Assembly (NCBI RefSeq): GCF_011207455.1
Contig: NZ_CP048877.1
Span: 922,576-986,575, forward strand
Reading direction: 5' to 3'
DNA: 64,000 nucleotides
Source: Thermosulfuriphilus ammonigenes
GTDB lineage: Bacteria; Desulfobacterota; Thermodesulfobacteria; Thermodesulfobacteriales; ST65
Part shown: in pieces, positions 1-15,553 of the stretch
How positions within the stretch are numbered: the first letter of the stretch is position 1
Layout of the letters: each line of letters opens with the position of its first letter
Position numbers and translations under genes: made by a program
The notes under the pieces: generated by a model
Databases searched by the model: none
What the model saw: only the letters and a program-made list of their open reading frames with translations
Told to the model about the DNA's origin: nothing

Positions 1-603
1 GGCCACGGTATCTCCCCTACGGACCCCCTTATCTGGAGCCGCCGGGAGAGGGAGCGCTTTTATGTCCTGGAGGCCCTGCTCTCAGCCGCTGAAATCCTCT
101 GCCGGCATCCCTCGCGCCCCCTGGTTCCGGAGGTACAGATAAACTTGGGCTATGCCCTGCCACTGGCCCAAAACCCAGAGGAGGTAGCCGCCTTTCCGGG
201 AAGAATCGTCGGTTTTAAGGAAGGAGTCCGGGTGGTGGCCCCACCAGAGTTTGGAGCCTCCAGACACGTGGCCAACATTATCCTTACCACCATGAGATAC
301 TCCCCGGAACATCGGGCGGCCATGAATATCCGCTATGATGAAACCTATATCTCCCGGGCCCGAAAGATGGGGCTCAAGGTCGTTGAGTTTTCCCGGGCCG
401 ATGAGCCCCCGGCAATCAAGAAAAGGGAGGGATCAACCCTCTCCTGGGGGGTGGCCTGGGCCATAGAACACCTTCAGGACATTCCAGATATCATTTTTGA
501 CCGTGGTGATGTGGGCAAAGAGCCAATGATCCGACTTCTGGGACGCCGTCCCGAGGAGCTGGTTTCCCTGGCCCTCTCTCTGGCTGGTCTCAATTCAGCC
601 TGA
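1..603 (+). CDS. Thiamine-phosphate synthase ThiN domain (5' partial)
   Basis: The reading frame is open from the first base, so the gene starts before the window and only its last 200 codons are visible. The protein matches the ThiN family, which joins hydroxymethylpyrimidine diphosphate and hydroxyethylthiazole phosphate into thiamine phosphate in organisms that lack ThiE. Features seen are [12 protein letters not shown], the GFGASRHVA-like stretch (here [10 protein letters not shown]), NIRYDE and [13 protein letters not shown], all typical of ThiN. ThiN is often the C-terminal half of a ThiD-ThiN fusion or of a regulator; which applies here cannot be seen. The 3' end overlaps the convergent chemoreceptor gene by 14 bases. 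Confidence 0.85.
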
Positions 604-2155
604 GGTTTCTTCTGGTAGTAGCCACCATTTCCTCAAGGTCACCTACCGCTGCCTTAAGCTCAGAGGAGATCTTCTGAAGCCCGGAAACTACTTCTTTGTT
701 TTTAAGGGCCGCTTGGTGGATGTCTCCCAGATCCTCACGGGCCAGTCTGGCCACTTCTTGGCTGACCTCTTCCACATTACGAATGGCCTCTTTTATGAGG
801 CTGATCTCCTCGGCCACCTTTTGAAAGAAAGTCTCAATCTCGGCCACCAAGCCCTGACCGGCTTCGGCCTCTCTAACGCTCCTGTCCATGAGCTCCACTC
901 CAGAGGCCACCTCTTTCTGAAGGCTGGAGAGAATGTTTTCAATCTCTTCGGTGGCCTTATGAGTTCTCAGGGAGAGATCTTTTACTTCGCCGGCCACCAC
1001 GGCAAAGCCCTTGCCGGCCTCCCCGGCCCGGGCGGCCTCAATGGTGGCGTTTAGGGCCAGAAGGTTGGTCTGCTCGGCTATTTCCCTGATAGTCTGGATA
1101 ATAGAGCCAATCTGACCGGAGAGTTGATGGAGGTGGTCCATGTTTCCGTGGATATCCACTATAGCCTGACTCAGGTTGGCCACGCCCTTTCCCACCCGCT
1201 GGACAACCTCTCGACCCGAGACAATAACCTCGGTGGCCCTCTGGACAGCCTTTTCCGCCGCTGAGGCCTCCGTAGCTACCTGTTCTATCCTCTTTGAGGC
1301 CTCCTGGGCCTTCTGGGCCTTGTCTTCCTGGATCTCAGCAATTTGGGCCATTCCCTCGGCCTCCTTCACCACCGTCTCTGTGCTACGAGCCACAGCCGTA
1401 GCCTTCTCTGCCACCCCCAGCAGATGTTTCCCCAGATTCTCCACCAGCTCATTGAGATACGCAGCCATGCGGGCCATCTCGTCCCGGCCGCGGATCTGAA
1501 AACGATGACCAAGATTGCCCCGGGAGATCTCTTTCACCCCCTGATAAAAGGTGGCCAGAGGTCTTTCAATGGCCCCACGGAAGACCAGCCACGATAGAAG
1601 CATCAAAAGAACAAGCAGGCCTACAGTAAGCTCCAGGCCTTGTCTTCTTAAGGCCGTAGCCGCCTCGAGAACCCGGCCGCTGTAGGCCACCAAAAAGTAG
1701 GAGTTCACCTCCCCTGCCCGCCAATCAGAATGACAACGAAGACAGTAGGTTGTCGTCTCTACTGGAATAATACGAGCCAGATCTTCAGAGACCATAAAGA
1801 CTTCACCTGAGGGAGCAAAAGCCTTCAGGAGATCCTGATAGTTTTGGCCAACCTTTTTCCGGTTTGAGGAGTAGAGTACAGTCCCCCCAGCATCTATCAA
1901 AGAAAGTTCCTTTATGCCCCTCTGACCGGCCACTGTTTGCAGAAGATGTTCGAAGGTCTTCATGTTGCCCTTACGCAGGGAGTCCACGGCGCTGGTAACG
2001 CTTATCTGGGCAATATTGTCTATCATCTCGAAAAGTTGTCCTCTATAAAGCCGGATCAGGCGATCAAAACCCCAGAGATAAACGGCTACGAAACAAAGGG
2101 AGTTAACAAGGATCAGAACAATCATTTTGTGTTTTAGACCAAGGCCCAGCTTCAT
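590..2155 (-). CDS. Methyl-accepting chemotaxis protein with periplasmic heme-c motif
   Basis: This is a transmembrane chemoreceptor of about 521 residues. A first membrane helix lies at about 9-30, a periplasmic sensor domain at about 31-170, and a second helix at about 176-196. A HAMP domain and a long cytoplasmic signalling coiled coil follow, with the hairpin tip [19 protein letters not shown]. The sensor domain contains CLRCH at about 138-142, a CXXCH heme-c attachment motif, so it probably binds covalent heme as described for some Geobacter chemoreceptors and Tll0287-like sensors. The ATG at 2155 is preferred over a GTG at 2167 because GAGGTG sits just upstream of it. It starts 11 bases after the hydrogenase small-subunit stop, so it is the third gene of a hydrogenase operon. 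A link between H2 oxidation and taxis is inferred from that. Confidence 0.9.
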
Positions 2156-2166
2156 GGAACACCTCA

Positions 2167-3102
2167 CTAAGTCTTGGTTTCGACGATAATTTTGGCCGGA
2201 TCAGGGTAGATCCCTCCCTCCCGATCCCAAGGCCACCTCTGATGGGCACAGCCTACACAGGGGGTGTTGGCATTAACACACCAGGAAGTTCCCTTATTCC
2301 AGCGTCTCAAGGGGCAGTCGGCATAGGTAACCGGCCCTCGACAACCCAGACGGAAGAGGCAGAACTTTTTCTGATTGTAATCGGTGGCGTAAGTGTCCTG
2401 AACAAAGTATTGATAACGCTGGCAGTTATGGTGGATGATGTCTTCATAGTACATAAGAGGGCGATTGTCTTTATCCAGAGGGGGAAGCTTTCCGTAGGCC
2501 ACAAAATAGGCTACCGTGCCGGCAAATCTAACGGAGTTCATAGGGCAGCCCGGGATCCGAACCACCGGCTTACCGAGCCCCTCTTTCTTCACAAAATCAA
2601 AGACAGACACGGCCCCAGTCTCAGGGTTAGCTCCCGGAATGCCTCCATAAGAGGCGCAGGTACCACAAGCAATTATTGCTGCTGCGGCCTCGATGACCTC
2701 CTTGAGGATGTCAGTCAGGGGACGTTCGGCTACGGTACAAGCCTCAGGCATTCCGCTGGGGATGGCCCCCTCAAAGCAGAGCACAAAGCCGCCCTGAGAA
2801 CGCATCTCGTCTATTATCTTCAAGACCAACTCTCCCTGAGCCACGGAAAGGACCGGGTGAAACTTAAGATCCACCAGGCTGGTCAGGATAGGGACTAAAG
2901 ACGGCGAATCTCCATAGACCAGAGAGACACTGTCTCCAGAGCAGGCCTGTCCCGTAAGCCAGATAACGGGAACCTCCTTGCGAGCGATCCGGATAAAGGC
3001 CTCTGCGAAATCGGGCCCCAAGGCCGCACTTCCGCAGAAGGTAAGGGCCAGGTGTCCACAGAATTTAAGGAATTCCCGTCGATTAAATAACTTATCCTTC
3101 AT
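2167..3102 (-). CDS. [NiFe] hydrogenase small subunit, Tat-exported
   Basis: This is the electron-transfer subunit of a periplasmic [NiFe] hydrogenase (311 residues). A twin-arginine signal ([10 protein letters not shown]) lies at residues 7-16. The proximal cluster region reads QACSGDSVS (C54, D57): the second Cys of the usual CTGC is replaced by Asp. The other proximal ligands GTCASYGG and PGCP are present. The distal cluster ligands ([13 protein letters not shown]) and medial cluster ligands ([14 protein letters not shown]) are intact. There is no C-terminal membrane anchor or b-type heme partner nearby. An Asp ligand at this site has been reported for group 1h/5 hydrogenases, but assignment to that group is not claimed. 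It lies between the large subunit and the chemoreceptor gene with spacings of about 12 bases. Confidence 0.93.
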
Positions 3103-3114
3103 ATAGTAAACCTC

Positions 3115-4581
3115 CTAGTGGATGCTACAGGCCAAACAGGGATCAAAGCTTCGTATCACCCGCCCCACCTCAATGAGCCCTTCTTTATAGGCTACCGGCG
3201 TACCAACGATGGCTTTCTCCGCCGGCCCAAGAAGGCCCCTTTCATCTCGGGGAGAAAAATTCCAGGTAGAGGGAACAACGCACTGGTATTTCACTATTCG
3301 CCCCTCTTTGGTGGCCACATAGTGAAGAAGCTCACCCCGGGCGGCATTTGACAGACCCAGCCCCTCACCAGTTATCGGAGCCTCGGGGTTAATCATTCGG
3401 ATGGTTGGTCCTTGGAGATCCAGACTCTCAAGGGCCCGAGGGAGAAACTCAAGGAGCATCTCCGCCTCTACGGCCCGGGCCAGATGCCGCCCCATGGTGG
3501 AGAAGGCCGCCTCTGGGCCATGTCCTAACTCCTTGAGGCGGGCCACCAGCCTCTTTCTTCCCTCTGAGGTCAGATAAACCCGAGAAAGAGGCCCGGTTTC
3601 CATCGGATAGCCGTCATACCTGGGAGCTTTAATCCAGGAGTAAGCCCCTTCCTTGTGAGGATGAGGGCGGGTCTCTCCCTGACTAAAGGCCCTTGGCCCC
3701 CCATCATAATAAGAAGCGGCGACGTGCTCGCTGATCTTTTCTACCTCAAGGGGATACGTTTTCCCCTCCACCATCACCCCCGGCTCGAATAAGGGGCGTC
3801 CCAGAGAGCTAAAACCTCCATAGGAGATAAGATTACGATAGCCCCGACCAATGCGAAAATATGCCGGATACCTCCGGGCCAGGGCCATAACGTCTGGCAC
3901 ATAGACGGCCAGGGCAAAACGATGAAGCCTGTCAACAAGGTCAGCCACCCTGGCCAGACGATCAGGGGTCAGTTCAACAGAGAGCCCCCCGGGGAAAACG
4001 GTATGGGCAAAAGGTGCCTTGCCTCCTAAAATGGCCAGGGCCTGAGCCCCGGTGCTGACCACCTCTAGGGCCTCAAGATAATGGGCCACCAAAGGAAGGG
4101 CCTGAGAAGGGTCACGAAGATAGTCTCCGGGGACTCTGCGGGTGTAAAGATATGGGCCTTTAAGCCTCACCCATTCTCTTACCGCCTTTAGCTGGGGATC
4201 TGTCCCCCTGTAGGCCAAAATGGCCCCAAAATCTACATAGTCTGGAACAGCCAGGTGATAGAAGTGGAGCATATGGTCGCTGGCCATGTGAATGGCCAGC
4301 AGGATGTCTTGAAGAAGGGCCCCGTTGGGCGGAGGCTTTATTCCGTAAAGGTTTGCCAGGGCCCGCGCGGAGGCAATGCCATGGACTTCGTGGCAGACGC
4401 CACAGATCCGCTGGGTGATCCTTAAGGCATCAAAAGGCCTTCGTCCCGAAAGAATATTCTCGAAGCCTCGATACATCTCTCCTTGAACCCAGGCATTAAT
4501 CACCCGACCATCCCTTACCTCAGTCTTTACTGCCAAGTGCCCTTCGATCCGGGTAAGTGGTGAAAGCCTCTTTATAGCCAT
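3115..4581 (-). CDS. [NiFe] hydrogenase large subunit without C-terminal extension
   Basis: This is the catalytic subunit (488 residues) carrying the NiFe active site. The L1 motif RICGVCHEVHG is at residues 58-68 (C60, C63) and the L2 motif DPCLACSIH at 480-488. The stop codon follows the final His directly, so there is no peptide for a maturation endopeptidase to remove. Most export-type hydrogenases are made with such a tail; regulatory hydrogenases (HupV/HoxC) and CooH-type enzymes are known exceptions. The start at 4581 (MAIKRLSPLTRIEGH) follows GAGGGGT; the frame is open further upstream but without homology to the family. It has no signal of its own and should be co-exported with the Tat-bearing small subunit. 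No hydrogenase maturation gene is present in the window. Confidence 0.93.
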   Translation of the reverse strand: MAIKRLSPLTRIEGHLAVKTEVRDGRVINAWVQGEMYRGFENILSGRRPFDALRITQRICGVCHEVHGIASARALANLYGIKPPPNGALLQDILLAIHMASDHMLHFYHLAVPDYVDFGAILAYRGTDPQLKAVREWVRLKGPYLYTRRVPGDYLRDPSQALPLVAHYLEALEVVSTGAQALAILGGKAPFAHTVFPGGLSVELTPDRLARVADLVDRLHRFALAVYVPDVMALARRYPAYFRIGRGYRNLISYGGFSSLGRPLFEPGVMVEGKTYPLEVEKISEHVAASYYDGGPRAFSQGETRPHPHKEGAYSWIKAPRYDGYPMETGPLSRVYLTSEGRKRLVARLKELGHGPEAAFSTMGRHLARAVEAEMLLEFLPRALESLDLQGPTIRMINPEAPITGEGLGLSNAARGELLHYVATKEGRIVKYQCVVPSTWNFSPRDERGLLGPAEKAIVGTPVAYKEGLIEVGRVIRSFDPCLACSIH

Positions 4582-4740: not shown

Positions 4741-5019
4741 ATGACTCAAAGGCTCAACTGTTGGGAGTTTAAAAGGTGTGGACGTCAGGGAACATGTCCG
4801 GCCTCTACAGAAAAAAGAGCCGACGGAATAAACGGCGGGAAAAACGGTGGCCGAGCCTGTTGGGCCATTGCCGGAACCTTCTGCGGCGGAAAGATTCAGG
4901 GGGTCTATTCCCAGAAGTTGGCTTCTTGTTTAAAGTGCGATTTCTACAAATTGGTCTTAAGAGAAGAGGGAAAGGCTTTTATCGGTGGCCGGGAGATCGT
5001 AAAAAGACTGGAGAGCTAA
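4741..5019 (+). CDS. Two-CW domain protein
   Basis: A small cysteine-rich protein of 92 residues. It contains NCWEFKRCGR near the N terminus, then RACWAIAGTFCGGKIQG and a C-terminal SCLKCDFYK, the pattern of the two-CW domain found in sensor and chemotaxis-associated proteins. The eight or so Cys residues suggest a bound metal or Fe-S cluster. The start at 4741 is set by GGAGG a few bases upstream; the frame is open for another 46 codons but those look non-coding. It diverges from the hydrogenase-chemoreceptor operon across about 160 bases, so both may share a regulatory region. The molecular function of the family is not known to me; a redox or signalling partner role is inference. Confidence 0.75.
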   Translation: MTQRLNCWEFKRCGRQGTCPASTEKRADGINGGKNGGRACWAIAGTFCGGKIQGVYSQKLASCLKCDFYKLVLREEGKAFIGGREIVKRLES

Positions 5020-8886: not shown

Positions 8887-10839
8887 TTATTCTTTGACTT
8901 CTAACCAATCTTCCGGCACAAGTTTATTACCTCTGCGCCACCTTTCGACGACGCAACTTTGGAACCAGTACTCAGCTATGTCAGCGTGATCTGTTATGAT
9001 CATCTGGAAGTTAGGACTCAGCTCTTGAATCACCCTTAATGCTAGCCGATACATTCGCGCGACCGCCTCACGGTCTTCATTTTCAATTCCATCCATACTT
9101 CCATTGACGTCTTTATCAGCTGGGAAGTACACTTGTGACGGCTGATCAACGAAAAGGAAGCGCGGTACGGGTCGCCCCTGGTTTACAAACCATTTGTGCA
9201 AGGCAAAGTGGGCGATCAAGTGATAACCAACCCAGTTCTCTCCGCTACCCATTCGTTCCATAGGAATTGGCCCATCTTTTGTGTCTGCCACCACCGTAAG
9301 ACGCTTCATATCAAGCCGAAGTGGATACTCTGAATGCTCTAATTGAAGTTCCTGAGCCCAGGCACTCATATCGCGGCTCATGATGGATATAATAGACGCT
9401 AGCCTCTCCTGAACTACCTCGTCGCTAACTTCCGCCTCAAGAGCAGAAATCTTATGATTTAGCTCTTCGATTTCTTGGTTAAGATCGCTTCTATCCTCAA
9501 GGTGGGGTAAACTTTCTAAGTACAATCCAATCCTGCCTAGAATGTGAGCTCGCCTCGCAGCACGATCACGGATCTCCTGCAGGCGCCTATTTGATGCCTG
9601 GACAGCTTCCAAAGCCTCCCTGTTCTCGCGAAGCCGCCTCTTGACATCGTTCATACGTTCCTGAAGTGTTCGGATTACTTGGTCCATCTGCGGAGAACGT
9701 TCCTCCACAGACCGAACCTGTTTTTCTATTTGTTTTAACGAGCGCTCCAAATCCACTACAGAGGGAATAGCATCCTCAGGCAACTTTGCCTGACACACTG
9801 GGCACACAGGCGTAACGGTACTTCCATCAGTATCAAAAAGTTGTATACTTTTAAGCCTGTGCACATGGGCACCAGCCTCACGCGAATAACCTTGGCGATC
9901 AGAAGCTAGTGCCTTTGCAGCGGCTAGCTGCTCCTTGATTTGACGAAGCTCCTCGGTGAGGGCATTCCGCTCTTCATGGAGTCGTTCAAATGCATCTCCC
10001 TCTCTTGCAAGCTCTTCTTCCGGTTCGACTGGCGATGCTTGGACTTGCCGTAGCGCCTCAACACACTGCTCCCAAGTGTCAGGGACGACATTAACATCAA
10101 AGAGGCCAATATCTTGCGCCTCTTTGAGGAGTGCCTGGGCACGACTGATGCCTCGCCCACGAATTCCTTCATATTCGGCCAGTTTTCGTTCCAAGCCTCG
10201 GAGATCACGTCGAAGTTGTCGTAACTCCGCTACCCTCGCGACGTGATATTCATCAACTGCGCCCAAGAAATATGGTAATACGTCTTTGATTGCCTGTGGA
10301 ATAAATTGCTCGCTTTGCTTGTGAAATAGATGCCTATTACTTATTACCTCGCTCTGTTGCTGAAACGAGAAGAACAAAGCGTGGCGAATGGTCGCGGTTA
10401 GAGCAGTACGAGTTTGCTCAGGACCTGGTTCATGAATGTTCTCCCCGATGCCAGCATGTTGGGAGAGAAGAGATTCGAGAGCTTTTGGATTGATAGTCTG
10501 CCTCAATGATGAAGATTCAGGAATCTCAACCTCGGTCTTAATATCGTAGTAGATATCGGCAGAGGCCTTTGCGCCTGGTCCAGGTAACCTCCGAGCAACA
10601 AATACCTGGCCATCCGTGACCTGCAAGCGAAGGCCAACCCATTCAACAGATTTCCGGATAATACCTTCTGGTATCTTGCACTCACTGCTCCCAAGGCAGT
10701 AATCGATGATTTCTATAAGAGCTGTCTTCCCGGTCTTCGATGCACCGGTAATAATGTTTAGTTCTCCAGGACGGAGCGACAGTAATCTTCGACGGCCATT
10801 GAATCCATATAGCACGACGTCGAGTATTTGGAAACTCAT
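8887..10839 (-). CDS. ABC-3C system ATPase, DUF3732 (SMC/RecN-like)
   Basis: An ATPase of 650 residues. The Walker A motif GASKTGKTAL lies at about 31-40 after the typical opening MSFQILDVVLYGFNGRRR. A long central coiled coil at about 200-480 is interrupted by CPVCQAKLPE, a zinc-hook-like CXXC. The C terminus has the Walker B-like FLFVDQPSQVYFP and ITDHAD. These are the marks of DUF3732, the ATPase of ABC-three-component (ABC-3C) defence systems. The start at 10839 overlaps the preceding gene's stop as ATGA. It acts with the two proteins encoded just upstream, presumably as a sensor that licenses the nuclease; that mechanism is inferred from the family. Codon use is richer in GC than in neighbouring cassettes. 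Confidence 0.85.
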   Translation of the reverse strand: MSFQILDVVLYGFNGRRRLLSLRPGELNIITGASKTGKTALIEIIDYCLGSSECKIPEGIIRKSVEWVGLRLQVTDGQVFVARRLPGPGAKASADIYYDIKTEVEIPESSSLRQTINPKALESLLSQHAGIGENIHEPGPEQTRTALTATIRHALFFSFQQQSEVISNRHLFHKQSEQFIPQAIKDVLPYFLGAVDEYHVARVAELRQLRRDLRGLERKLAEYEGIRGRGISRAQALLKEAQDIGLFDVNVVPDTWEQCVEALRQVQASPVEPEEELAREGDAFERLHEERNALTEELRQIKEQLAAAKALASDRQGYSREAGAHVHRLKSIQLFDTDGSTVTPVCPVCQAKLPEDAIPSVVDLERSLKQIEKQVRSVEERSPQMDQVIRTLQERMNDVKRRLRENREALEAVQASNRRLQEIRDRAARRAHILGRIGLYLESLPHLEDRSDLNQEIEELNHKISALEAEVSDEVVQERLASIISIMSRDMSAWAQELQLEHSEYPLRLDMKRLTVVADTKDGPIPMERMGSGENWVGYHLIAHFALHKWFVNQGRPVPRFLFVDQPSQVYFPADKDVNGSMDGIENEDREAVARMYRLALRVIQELSPNFQMIITDHADIAEYWFQSCVVERWRRGNKLVPEDWLEVKE

Positions 10840-11333
10840 GGTCGGATCCCCCAAAGTGCCATTACTGTTTGTACCGAGCCAGCAGAAGCAAACCACTTTC
10901 CAACGAAGCGGCCCCGTTTTATACAGTCCCTTGCCTCATCGCCCAACCTTCGGAGGAAGCGATCTACATCCACGTTATTCTTGGTCGTTTGTAATCTACC
11001 CCCTGTACCAAAGGACAACCAGTCATGAAGAAGAGCAAACAGAATGGCCTCTCGCGTATAGGGCTTGAGTGAGATCGTCCGTTCTGCGAACAGAACGCGA
11101 GCTGACATATTCTCCTGAAGCCACGCAGCCATGGATGTCCGTATGGTTCGCGGGAGTGACTCACGAGTTTCTTTGTGTAGGACAATTGGCAAAATGATGA
11201 AGGACAAAGGGTACGGCATGCCTGCTTTATCAATGTCCGTGTACCCCACTACGGCAGAAGTCAGTGTAACACAGCAGAATGCTGGATTCAGTAAGTTAGC
11301 TTCTTCTACCGGCCGTTGGGCCCACGGTTTCAT
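10836..11333 (-). CDS. ABC-3C system middle component
   Basis: A 165-residue protein beginning MKPWAQRPVEEANLLNPAFC, with GMPYPLSFIILPIVLHKETR, an alpha-helical middle and TTKNNVDVDRFLRRLGDEAR before a short C-terminal helix (SAGSVQTVMALWGIRP). This matches the middle-component (MC) proteins that sit between the effector and ATPase genes of ABC-3C systems. It overlaps both neighbours by four bases, so all three are translationally coupled. MC proteins are thought to bridge the ATPase and the effector; no enzymatic motif is visible. Confidence 0.8.
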   Translation of the reverse strand: MKPWAQRPVEEANLLNPAFCCVTLTSAVVGYTDIDKAGMPYPLSFIILPIVLHKETRESLPRTIRTSMAAWLQENMSARVLFAERTISLKPYTREAILFALLHDWLSFGTGGRLQTTKNNVDVDRFLRRLGDEARDCIKRGRFVGKWFASAGSVQTVMALWGIRP

Positions 11334-12526
11334 TTTTCTGCCTCCTGTGGTTCCAGCAGCTTCTTGAGGCGTTTAAGGAACTCGGGATGCCATCCGACCC
11401 GCAATTTGTCGGCAAGGATCTGATAAGTACCCCGAGCTATACATGGTTCAGTAACACCAGCCCGAATAGACCGATGGCTACCTGTTTCTACCCATTTGTA
11501 CAGCGCTTGTGCGGCCTTCTTTTTTGCTTCCTCAGCCGCGTCATTCCCAAGGTCATCCTTCATGGCTTCAAACAAGAGTTCCCATTCTTCCACCAAGCGA
11601 TCCTCGTAGCGATCTAGTTCTCCCACAAAAAGCAGATCTTCTCTAACCCATCTGGATCGCTGCTCAAAGGCCCTAAAGTAGTTCCGAATCGCATAAAATA
11701 TGCGTCGGTTGCCAATTTCAATTAGCCGCAATTGATGGACGAATGTTCTGTCTTGATATCCGGATGCATCCACTGTTGCATTCATGATGTCATCGTCGAC
11801 TGGCAGGTTGTCTTGCTTAAATTGCTCGCGCAACCGCCCTTCTTCAGCCAAAAGTTCTTCGCTTAGAATTGGCTCTGATGCATCACTCGACAGATGCTCG
11901 ATCACTCTGCGAAACCACCATCCCTCAATCCTCCTCACAAAAGAGTCTAAGAACTTTGGCTTTACTGCATGAAACAATTCCTCCTTAAGGAGCCCGTCAA
12001 GGTCAGAAATGGCGGGAGCGTTATCAAGCACGATGACGGCTTCAAGAAAATTGCGTTTCTTTTCCGCACTAAGGTTACGAAATAGCTTGTAGGCGTGAGT
12101 GTTGGTCTTGTTTGTGGATGATTCGGCCGTCGCGTTGAGACGCTCAATAGCTCTTACGACGTCCCTTGATTTTCCAGCTCTTAAATAGTAAGCTGCAGAA
12201 GCTTCAGGGGCGCTGGATGTGGTGATAAGAAAAAAAGTTGAATCATCTGGAATAGTATCATTTATTAGACCACTTATCCAAATGCGAAATGTCTTCCATA
12301 TATCAGGTGAAGCATCATTTAAATCAGCAGCTCTATTAATATGATGTTTAGTCTGAAGAATTTCAGCTGCCTCTCCGTTACTATCAAAAACTACATCATC
12401 CAATGTTTCTATTGATACACTGAAAGTTACATTTTTTCTCAGACGGCGGAGAGCTTCGAGTAACGCCAATCTACATTGATAAAGATAGCCAATTAATGAT
12501 GCTGACGCACCAAAATTGTTCTTCAC
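11330..12526 (-). CDS. ABC-3C effector with Cap4-like nuclease N-terminus
   Basis: A 398-residue protein, the first gene of the ABC-3C cassette. The N-terminal 200 residues (GASASLIGYLYQCRLALLEA, then SIETLDDVVFDSNG and ILQTKHH) look like the dsDNA endonuclease domain of DUF4297/Cap4 type. Candidate catalytic residues are the Asp pair and the QXK. The C-terminal part (ending FLKRLKKLLEP) fits the ABC-3C C-terminal domain that docks on the middle component. The first 100 or so codons are noticeably richer in AT than the rest, suggesting a mosaic gene. It overlaps the middle-component gene by four bases. Probable role: nuclease effector against invading DNA. Confidence 0.8.
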   Translation of the reverse strand: MKNNFGASASLIGYLYQCRLALLEALRRLRKNVTFSVSIETLDDVVFDSNGEAAEILQTKHHINRAADLNDASPDIWKTFRIWISGLINDTIPDDSTFFLITTSSAPEASAAYYLRAGKSRDVVRAIERLNATAESSTNKTNTHAYKLFRNLSAEKKRNFLEAVIVLDNAPAISDLDGLLKEELFHAVKPKFLDSFVRRIEGWWFRRVIEHLSSDASEPILSEELLAEEGRLREQFKQDNLPVDDDIMNATVDASGYQDRTFVHQLRLIEIGNRRIFYAIRNYFRAFEQRSRWVREDLLFVGELDRYEDRLVEEWELLFEAMKDDLGNDAAEEAKKKAAQALYKWVETGSHRSIRAGVTEPCIARGTYQILADKLRVGWHPEFLKRLKKLLEPQEAEK

Positions 12527-14009: not shown

Positions 14010-15553
14010 TTAATTTTTTACTCCAGTATTACAGAAAGGATGCGTTATTTGAGCATTTTCTATTGTAGCCTTGCCACCATCTTGCTTCCTCTGAATATGA
14101 TCTATCGATATCGCATTTCTATGAATAAGACCACCACAAATTTTGCATTTAGGAGCATTATCAATTGCTTCCTTAATATAGACTAAACTCTTTTTGTAAT
14201 TATCGAAGTCCTTTTTATCTGTCTGTTTCTGTCTAGGCGTTTCTAGCATTAAATAAGAAAAATCTGTTTGGATTAACATATGTATCGTCTTTTCAACTGA
14301 ACCTTCTTTGATTAGATAAGACATAGCTTGAAATAGAAAGTTTGATATATAAGGATAACTTCTAATAGCACTTCTATATTTCCTATTTATCTGTTGGATC
14401 AAATAATCATAGTCCCATAATATCTTTTCTATTCCAGTACGGACTTGAATAAAATCTTTTAACTTTTTTCTTTCTTTAAGATCTATAACAAATTTTATAA
14501 CCCCATAGAATAACGCGGGTTTATGTCTCCCATCCTTTGAATAAAAATAAATGATAGGATGGAGGCCTAATGAAGAAGGATGATTACTATTTATAAGTCT
14601 TGCAACCTTTAATGTGTTTTTTAAAAATTTTATAGTTTCATCTCCGGTTATATCGTCTTTCAAATTTGTTGATTGAGTGATCTTATTAGAAATATTTACA
14701 AAATCTAATATTAGAGGTAGAGTCTGAGCAGAATATCGTTTACCACCAATGGGTACATCCAATGTTTTTATAGGTGTTATTAGTTTCGGCTCAAATAGTA
14801 TTTCATTTATTTCGGTTGCTATTCTTTGTATTTCTAATTGCTTATCTTCATCGAATTTTGACCAGTATTTGTGTCCTTTTCCACTTCTTATTATTGCTCT
14901 TGCGGCAATACTATTGGGCTTCCTGCGGGTTTTGAGCAGGGTCAATTCTGTTTGATTTATAGGGGCTGCTTGTTGATTAATCTTGAAAAATGAGTTTTCT
15001 GCCTTACTGGCATCACCTTCAACCCACTGAAGTTGTATGGCAAGAGCTGCAAGATTTTTTGCATTTTTTACAATATCGGGTCTAACTTTGTCAGGATGTG
15101 TTAAAGCAAGTTCAAAGTCACTATAAGAACCTACTATAGAATTCACCAATTTCCTTGTTTTTTCTGCGATTTTTATTTGTTCATCTGGAATAATACCATC
15201 GTAAAACATTTTTGAAATTTTACCATCTCCATAATCATCATTGACCCATGCTGCTAGTGAACTTAAGCGGTGAGAACCATCTATTACAAACAAATAACCA
15301 CTAGAACTACGCCACAAAATTATTGCTGGTATCAAATCACCCTCTACAAAACTTTTAATAAAGTCCGCAACTTTTTTTCATCCCATTCGTTGGTCTCTCG
15401 TTGAAAGTCTGGTTTTCTTAGATTAATAAAGAAAAAAGAATTATACTTTATATCTTCAATAGAAATTGTTTCTTTCTTTTTCCCTGGATTGGGATTCTCT
15501 TTAATTTCAAAATCTTCTCTTGGTATCAATGCATCTAAATTTACTTTACCCAT
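14010..15553 (-). pseudogene. DUF262/HNH nuclease-like protein with a -1 frame break
   Basis: The first 69 codons (MGKVNLDALIPREDFEIKEN ... LRKPDFQRETNEWDEKK) end at a stop shortly after an A7 tract (plus strand T7 at 15372-15378). Moving one base back at that tract reads VADFIKSFVEGDLIPAIILW, and the frame then stays open to 14010. The joined protein of about 513 residues has the DUF262 motif FVIDGSHRLSSLAAWVND and a C-terminal HNH-type zinc site (CKICGGLIHRNAISIDHIQ). Such proteins are related to GmrSD-type and other modification-dependent defence nucleases. The break site is A AAA AAG in frame, the sequence used for programmed -1 shifts in dnaX, so the product might still be made. Confidence 0.7.

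Follow-up and report, generated by a model that had tools for sequence, protein, structure and literature searches.

Introduction

Regulatory [NiFe] hydrogenases of the HupUV/HoxBC type, which act with the kinase HoxJ and form group 2b of the HydDB classification, are not exported and have a soluble kinase as their partner. Here we analyse a set of three genes, hydL, hydS and MCP, at the left end of a 64,000-nucleotide stretch of Thermosulfuriphilus ammonigenes DNA (NZ_CP048877.1, positions 922,576 to 986,575; hereafter the window), which lies within a single 2.29-Mb contig. The genes encode the large and small subunits of a [NiFe] hydrogenase and a methyl-accepting chemotaxis protein (MCP) with a heme-c attachment motif, and our analysis makes it fairly likely that hydLS is an exported, H2-sensing hydrogenase that passes electrons to the receptor heme. 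The parts of such a system are known separately, as sensory hydrogenases and as heme-c MCPs; what would be new is a sensory hydrogenase in an exported, receptor-coupled form.

Published sources are cited here from excerpts of their texts, by PubMed Central (PMC) number. HydDB recognises the sensory [NiFe] groups 2b and 2c and a "chemotactic (putative)" [FeFe] class, C2, whose role is given there as undetermined, and the excerpts of its description contain no group-1 class with MCPs (PMC5037454). Regulatory hydrogenases characteristically have Gln where the large subunit otherwise keeps a conserved His (PMC5665086). On the receptor side, the closest described proteins are GSU0582 and GSU0935 of Geobacter and the sCache_heme family (DUF3365/Tll0287), with which the window receptor shares a periplasmic CxxCH sensor, predicted to be Cache-like, ahead of HAMP and MCPsignal domains; the word "hydrogenase" is absent from the main texts of both papers (PMC8396549, PMC12889525). 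The two halves meet in a table of a 2025 neighbourhood survey, which records 87 MCP-domain genes, grouped as one cluster, in the vicinity of [NiFe] large subunits; the terms "Chemotaxis" and "MCPsignal" each appear a single time in the text, both in this table, and the excerpts offer no sensor model (PMC12727194). Apart from this table, the matches listed in the open-licence PMC literature, as excerpted, hold no description of the pairing of hydrogenase and receptor as a system; an earlier, preliminary description of this DNA likewise knew of no account of such a direct pairing. Nor did we find a molecular receptor for H2 taxis among the open-licence papers listed.

Results

The hydL-hydS-MCP locus

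The genes and motifs on which the argument turns are the following.

3115..4581, minus strand: hydL, [NiFe] hydrogenase large subunit, 488 aa, no C-terminal extension (Pfam NiFeSe_Hases, E 8.5e-118)
3118..3144, minus strand: DPCLACSIH, C-terminus of hydL, stop codon right behind the His (sequence reading)
2167..3102, minus strand: hydS, small subunit of the twin-arginine translocation (Tat) type, 311 aa (NiFe_hyd_SSU_C 6e-27, Oxidored_q6 1.4e-21)
3064..3081, minus strand: RREFLK, Tat-type motif of hydS (sequence reading)
2932..2943, minus strand: CSGD, first proximal-cluster motif of hydS, Asp for the second Cys (alignment, ligand table)
590..2155, minus strand: MCP, predicted Cache-like periplasmic sensor, HAMP, MCPsignal (MCPsignal about 9e-38, HAMP 1.4e-8, low-confidence fold model)
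1730..1744, minus strand: CLRCH, heme-c attachment motif of MCP, residues 138-142 (sequence reading, conservation)

The preliminary description had seen a large subunit, a Tat-type small subunit and a chemoreceptor following each other on one strand with gaps of about 12 bases, and this is confirmed, with 12 bases between hydL and hydS and 11 between hydS and MCP. The hydL frame begins with ATG at 4581 and stops at 3115, the MCP frame begins with ATG at 2155 or GTG at 2167 and stops at 590, and a purine-rich stretch precedes the starts of both hydS and MCP.

Two features had gone unnoticed, namely the missing C-terminal extension of hydL and the CSGD motif of hydS, in which Asp replaces the second Cys of the proximal cluster. 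While the RICGVC and DPC..C..H motifs of hydL are intact, the protein stops exactly at the latter, and so do all 23 sensor-linked large subunits that were found by homology (extension 0; the count includes L044 of genome G029, whose contig ends in hydS). HoxC, of the regulatory hydrogenase, likewise has an extension of 0. All ten scorable canonical controls, in contrast, carry 15-17 residues beyond DPC..C..H. Extension loss as proof of a sensor role was nevertheless rejected, since other hydrogenase types and the canonical-type L311 and L312 lack the extension too. These last two large subunits (L311:8088-9773 and L312:348-2033) are each preceded by the small-subunit gene and followed by a gene for a 488-aa CxxCH protein, and represent a separate loss of the extension. 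A different kind of ending is seen at L045:7137-8552, where the large-subunit frame stops after ...RSFDP, at the place where Cys or selenocysteine is expected, and which is possibly a selenocysteine-containing NiFeSe hydrogenase.

The small subunit starts with ...RREFLK..., and RR.FL is retained in all five hydS compared; in the alignment hydS stops short of the C-terminal stretch present in HoxK and HyaA. All twelve of its Fe-S ligand positions are occupied, one of them by Asp, and four Cys serve the medial cluster, a feature shared with HoxB and some canonical controls. The Asp at the second proximal Cys position is shared by the window with L040, L039, L044 and L091, whereas L041 carries Glu; in the alignment, Asp also occupies this position in the C. 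necator protein HofK. More generally, the catalytic and Fe-S ligand positions are filled in all complete linked enzymes. A canonical-type small subunit, L046:107-1222, has Asp at the first proximal Cys position, that is, at the other position from that of the window.

Like the group 2b enzymes the window hydrogenase would be an H2 sensor with a signalling partner, without C-terminal extension and with four medial Cys; unlike them, it has a Tat-type RRxF motif in hydS and its partner is a membrane receptor with hydrophobic stretches, HAMP and CxxCH, usually with MCP output, so that the group 2b trait of an unexported enzyme with a soluble partner does not apply. Moreover, all 23 linked large subunits keep the His that is Gln in HoxC. 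Because of this His and the Tat motif, we rejected assignment to the HoxBC type. With canonical group-1 [NiFe] hydrogenases the window enzyme shares the Tat-type small subunit, the active-site motifs and the proximal, medial and distal ligands (save for the second proximal one, Asp in the window), but it lacks the extension and has an MCP neighbour, which none of the ten controls has in the stretches fetched. The [FeFe] group C2 has in common with it the idea of sensing H2 through an MCP, but is built on another metal site and protein family; NiFeSe_Hases is the sole Pfam family listed for the catalytic subunit of the window.

The same genome encodes a second, canonical hydrogenase with a 15-residue C-terminal extension. 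Its MCP frames number 16, with a total of 17 MCPsignal matches above the cut-off, and among these frames only the window receptor and one other contain CxxCH. There are also 8 CheW-domain, 2 flagellin and 4 cytochrome-c assembly matches.

The sensor domain and its heme motif

Two long hydrophobic stretches, read by eye, flank the sensor domain of the MCP. Since CLRCH lies between them, the motif should be on the periplasmic side of the membrane, in agreement with the preliminary description. Among 22 aligned receptors of the same gene position (in one of which, L094, the C-terminus is cut by the contig end) CxxCH is retained in every one, Pfam finds MCPsignal in all and HAMP in 20, and the invariant sensor residues are only G63, M65, F68, L86, C138, C141 and H142. 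Given this conservation across the linked sensors, we rejected a chance origin of the motif.

The similarity to the Geobacter and sCache_heme sensors is below Pfam cut-offs. PF11845 (sCache_heme, DUF3365/Tll0287) is absent among the Pfam matches listed for the window at E up to 1, PF21563 matches one of the 22 aligned receptors (E 0.0017), and a sensor profile matches 3b47 weakly (E 0.3), with the CxxCH motifs aligned. A fold model built from four sequences (mean predicted local distance difference test score 61, low confidence) is Cache-like and puts the CxxCH helix (137-142) between the last two strands of the fold (125-132 and 152-158), which is the arrangement reported for sCache_heme (PMC12889525). 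The best fold matches of this model are WalK and CitA-like Cache domains, with 3b42 and 3b47 at ranks 17, 39 and 40; in a second fold comparison, again led by WalK and CitA-like domains, 3b42 and 3b47 are not among the 50 matches listed. We also considered the invariant Met65 as the equivalent of the Geobacter ligand Met60, which the alignment does not support.

Recurrence of the pairing

All genome comparisons were made within one phylum. The sensor half of the receptor is matched in five of 60 genomes (its own and relatives), always directly after hydL and hydS; the order hydL-hydS-MCP is found in G000, G023, G032, G005 and G055, and in G029 up to the contig end inside hydS. A profile of five sensors has matches in 148 of 395 genomes of the phylum, and of 30 loci fetched from these matches 18 have hydS and hydL just upstream and 12 do not.

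We then took two censuses in which the receptor played no part in finding loci, the search being for the DNA pattern of an extension-less C-terminus directly followed by a stop codon; a reversed control pattern gave zero matches among those listed in both. Census 1 covered 395 genomes, with a pattern that lacks AGY serine codons and hence misses the window's own gene. It returned 31 places, 22 with Tat-type hydS, 8 with other hydrogenase types (soluble and group-3b-like, a visual call based on gene order and the absence of a Tat motif) and one without a hydrogenase gene. The gene after the 22 Tat-type enzymes is an MCP in 18 cases and a di-heme Hpt-HATPase kinase in 3, and in one case the contig ends. 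Census 2, in which the absent extension is a search criterion and not a result, covered 257 and 277 genomes of two classes and returned 80 places, 10 already known and 70 new. The new places comprise 48 with an MCP, 6 with an Hpt-HATPase kinase, 4 with a PAS-HisKA-HATPase kinase carrying CxxCH, 6 cut after the start of a CxxCH sensor, 3 cut before any gene, and 3 without a sensor. All 64 census 2 sensors have CxxCH; in 63 of them the motif is in the best frame, and in L284, next to an assembly gap, it is in a second one.

Some of these counts depend on how loci were assigned. The MCP and Hpt assignments in census 2 come from profiles built on the first loci found; among the kinases, Pfam was applied to two of the Hpt type, to the C-terminal frame of one more, and to three with HisKA, the fourth HisKA kinase, L309, being assigned by similarity alone. 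L279 and L286 are counted as MCP loci although the contig end cuts hydL, and L244, L245, L262 and L276, where the receptor or kinase lies in two frames, are counted as found.

Pooling both censuses, a CxxCH sensor gene comes next in 85 of the 88 group-1-like loci with a visible next gene. Two of the three exceptions, L311 and L312, group with the canonical hydrogenases; the third, L304, stands outside the canonical branch, among the linked enzymes. Canonical control loci have an MCP in 0 of 10 (in the stretches fetched, with flanks of unequal length), a comparison from which L111 was excluded as chosen via its MCP match (two MCP frames begin about 4 and 6.5 kb after its hydL). A further 24 short control loci have an MCP in 0 of 24, a weak control, since their 1.5-kb flanks fall short of the far side of hydL, whose end is not visible in them, and 7 of the 24 repeat genes from the set of 10. 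Two of the three outcomes that the preliminary description had named as refuting its idea could be assessed, a pairing unique to this genome and loss of CxxCH from relatives with a conserved neighbourhood. Both are contradicted: the pairing recurs in the homology search and in both censuses, and the motif is kept in 22 of 22 and 64 of 64 sensors. The relatives' gene order and the censuses thus led us to reject the pairing as an oddity of one genome.

The unit is tied to a chemosensory pathway by six loci in which genes for a CheA-type kinase and a second MCP come after the receptor gene; L273 and L287 were read gene by gene, L273 with Pfam, and a CheW-like gene in between was named by eye. The di-heme-motif kinases of L150 (3557-6816), L151 and L152, with Hpt and HATPase_c domains (by Pfam on L151 and L152), stand after extension-less hydLS, and in L150 two more genes come after the kinase, one for a CheX protein (by Pfam) and one for a protein that looks receiver-like by eye.

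The sensor type also occurs apart from hydrogenases. In the same phylum L105, L107 and L108 are heme-motif MCPs with an MCPsignal match and no adjoining hydrogenase match; L118 matches the sensor profile without CxxCH, and likewise has no adjoining hydrogenase. An MCP-based scan of further genome contigs gave three methanotroph MCPs and one other MCP with no recognisable hydrogenase nearby. L105:8090-10354 has a hemerythrin domain at the end opposite its CxxCH sensor, and L116:7813-9918 has a CxxCH sensor (PF21563 match at 8.4e-7) ahead of GAF and HD domains, which suggests that related heme-motif sensors drive other outputs too.

Trees and co-divergence

In a large-subunit tree of 44 rows the canonical branch (100/99) consists of 11 controls, HoxG, HyaB and HybC, while the 23 linked rows and the 3 Hpt-kinase rows all lie elsewhere. 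HoxC, too, falls outside this branch, on a very long branch of its own beside six linked rows (90/91), a position that we do not read as kinship. A second tree of 68 rows leaves out HoxC and three soluble outgroup rows and uses 15 of the 48 new MCP loci. Its canonical branch (Shimodaira-Hasegawa-like approximate likelihood ratio test, SH-aLRT, 96) includes L311 and L312 and no sensor-linked rows, and each kinase type forms one branch. A single clade of all linked hydrogenases was dropped, support being found only for the canonical branch. Swaps of output were few, while the hydrogenase and CxxCH persisted.

The hydrogenase diverges together with the sensor. Across 22 pairs the Mantel correlation is 0.89 between hydrogenase and sensor and 0.66 between hydrogenase and the signalling domain of the same receptor, and none of 5000 permutations reached any of the three plain correlations. 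The partial correlation with the sensor is 0.80 given the signalling domain, and that with the signalling domain is -0.26 given the sensor. Since common descent alone should act alike on both halves of one gene, the stronger tracking of the sensor points to contact between hydrogenase and sensor. Mean identity is 0.29 for the sensor and 0.36 for the signalling domain.

Discussion

The link between hydrogenase and sensor is well supported by the comparison of gene order and its conservation, of the catalytic and Fe-S positions, of CxxCH, of the absent extension and of co-divergence, all of which are seen in the sequences, and the pairing is probably a device for sensing H2 and steering or signalling. 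From these observations we infer heme occupancy, direct contact, electron transfer, H2 as the natural signal, and taxis. How could such a device work? In the model that we favour, hydL and hydS would assemble and the Tat signal of hydS would carry the enzyme to the periplasm, so that it shares a compartment with the sensor domain of the receptor. The Ni-Fe site would split H2, and electrons would pass along the three hydS Fe-S clusters to the adjoining receptor and its heme c, where the redox change together with a change of the sixth ligand (or of spin) would move the sensor fold. The signal would then run across the membrane via HAMP to the MCP tip and on to CheA, and cells would steer by H2; hydLS would serve sensing rather than bulk energy metabolism. 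The H2/H+ couple lies below -156 and -251 mV, and reduction by H2 of hemes with these potentials would therefore be downhill. Such are the potentials of the Geobacter heme-c MCP sensors, which switch spin and ligand on reduction (PMC8396549).

The preliminary description had proposed H2 taxis by way of the receptor heme. This is supported in part, with the pairing and CxxCH conserved and the hydrogenase extension-less, outside the canonical branch and co-diverging with the sensor. The output is not always chemotaxis, as two lineages have kinases instead.

An ordinary periplasmic uptake hydrogenase feeding soluble cytochromes, with the MCP co-transcribed for redox (energy) taxis without direct electron transfer, would also have intact catalytic and Fe-S ligand positions, as observed here, and the heme-motif MCPs L105, L107 and L108 indicate that the sensor type as such needs no hydrogenase. 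We consider this explanation unlikely, however, as the genome already has a canonical hydrogenase with its 15-residue extension, a CxxCH sensor gene comes next in nearly every locus (85/88), the divergence of the hydrogenase follows the sensor more closely than it follows the receptor's signalling domain, and in two lineages kinases have replaced the MCP with hydrogenase and CxxCH retained. Slightly less probable still is a hydrogenase that senses H2 and signals to the receptor as a protein ligand, by contact and a change of conformation, leaving the heme to structure or to the sensing of nitric oxide (NO) or oxidants. Regulatory hydrogenases do act together with a histidine kinase bound to them, and the acceptor of their electrons is described as yet unknown (PMC5665086); a related signalling heme-Cache domain binds NO (PMC12889525); and a possible heme ligand varies with the type of output. 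On the other hand, CxxCH supplies three of the seven invariant residues and is retained in the linked sensors, and the Fe-S chain, too, is retained. The same NO binding could suggest that the receptor senses NO or redox state and that the hydrogenase merely holds the heme reduced and ligand-binding, which we regard as very improbable: there are related sensors with no hydrogenase next to them, which would depend on such help as well, and a dedicated hydrogenase would presumably be a costly reductant.

Several observations weigh against an exported hydrogenase that reports H2 through the receptor heme. The related heme-Cache domain reportedly behaves as an NO sensor (PMC12889525), and so the natural signal of the receptor could differ. 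Counted by hand on a weak alignment (E 0.3), the receptor has Leu where the Geobacter sensors have the redox-switched Met60; the invariant Met comes five residues further on, and six Hpt-kinase sensors have Arg in its place. Extension loss is not specific to sensors, given that 8 of the 31 places of census 1 are other types and that L311 and L312 are canonical-type, and L304 (567-3023), an extension-less hydLS outside the canonical branch, has no sensor gene in the next 7 kb. A one-clade origin of the linked enzymes lacks support, the base of the tree being unresolved with the outgroup, and exchange of signalling domains or faster evolution of the sensor could be behind part of the co-divergence. 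Finally, the confinement of the comparisons to one phylum also counts on this side.

More generally, and with somewhat less confidence than for the window itself, we propose that extension-less exported [NiFe] hydrogenases of one or more lineages that fall outside the canonical branch have signalling as their sole task. They would form an interchangeable H2 input unit that reduces the heme c of membrane receptors and has been plugged into at least three outputs, namely chemoreceptors, Hpt-type di-heme kinases and HisKA kinases. If so, this would explain what some heme-c chemoreceptors sense, and would add to the [NiFe] hydrogenases an exported sensory form and with it a modular route to H2-responsive signalling. 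It would also be a warning for genome surveys that such hydrogenases are not to be tallied as respiratory enzymes. H2 is a central currency between anaerobes, and this family of loci offers a genetically defined candidate receptor along with the enzyme that may supply the electrons it reads.

Other features of the window

Divergent to hydL, at 4741-5019, lies a gene for a small Cys-rich protein with two CW domains. Further on, 8887-12526 holds a cluster of the ABC-three-component type (DUF3732 ATPase, MC3 and CTD7 proteins), possibly a defence system, and the gene at 14010-15335 has HNH and weak GmrSD_N matches.

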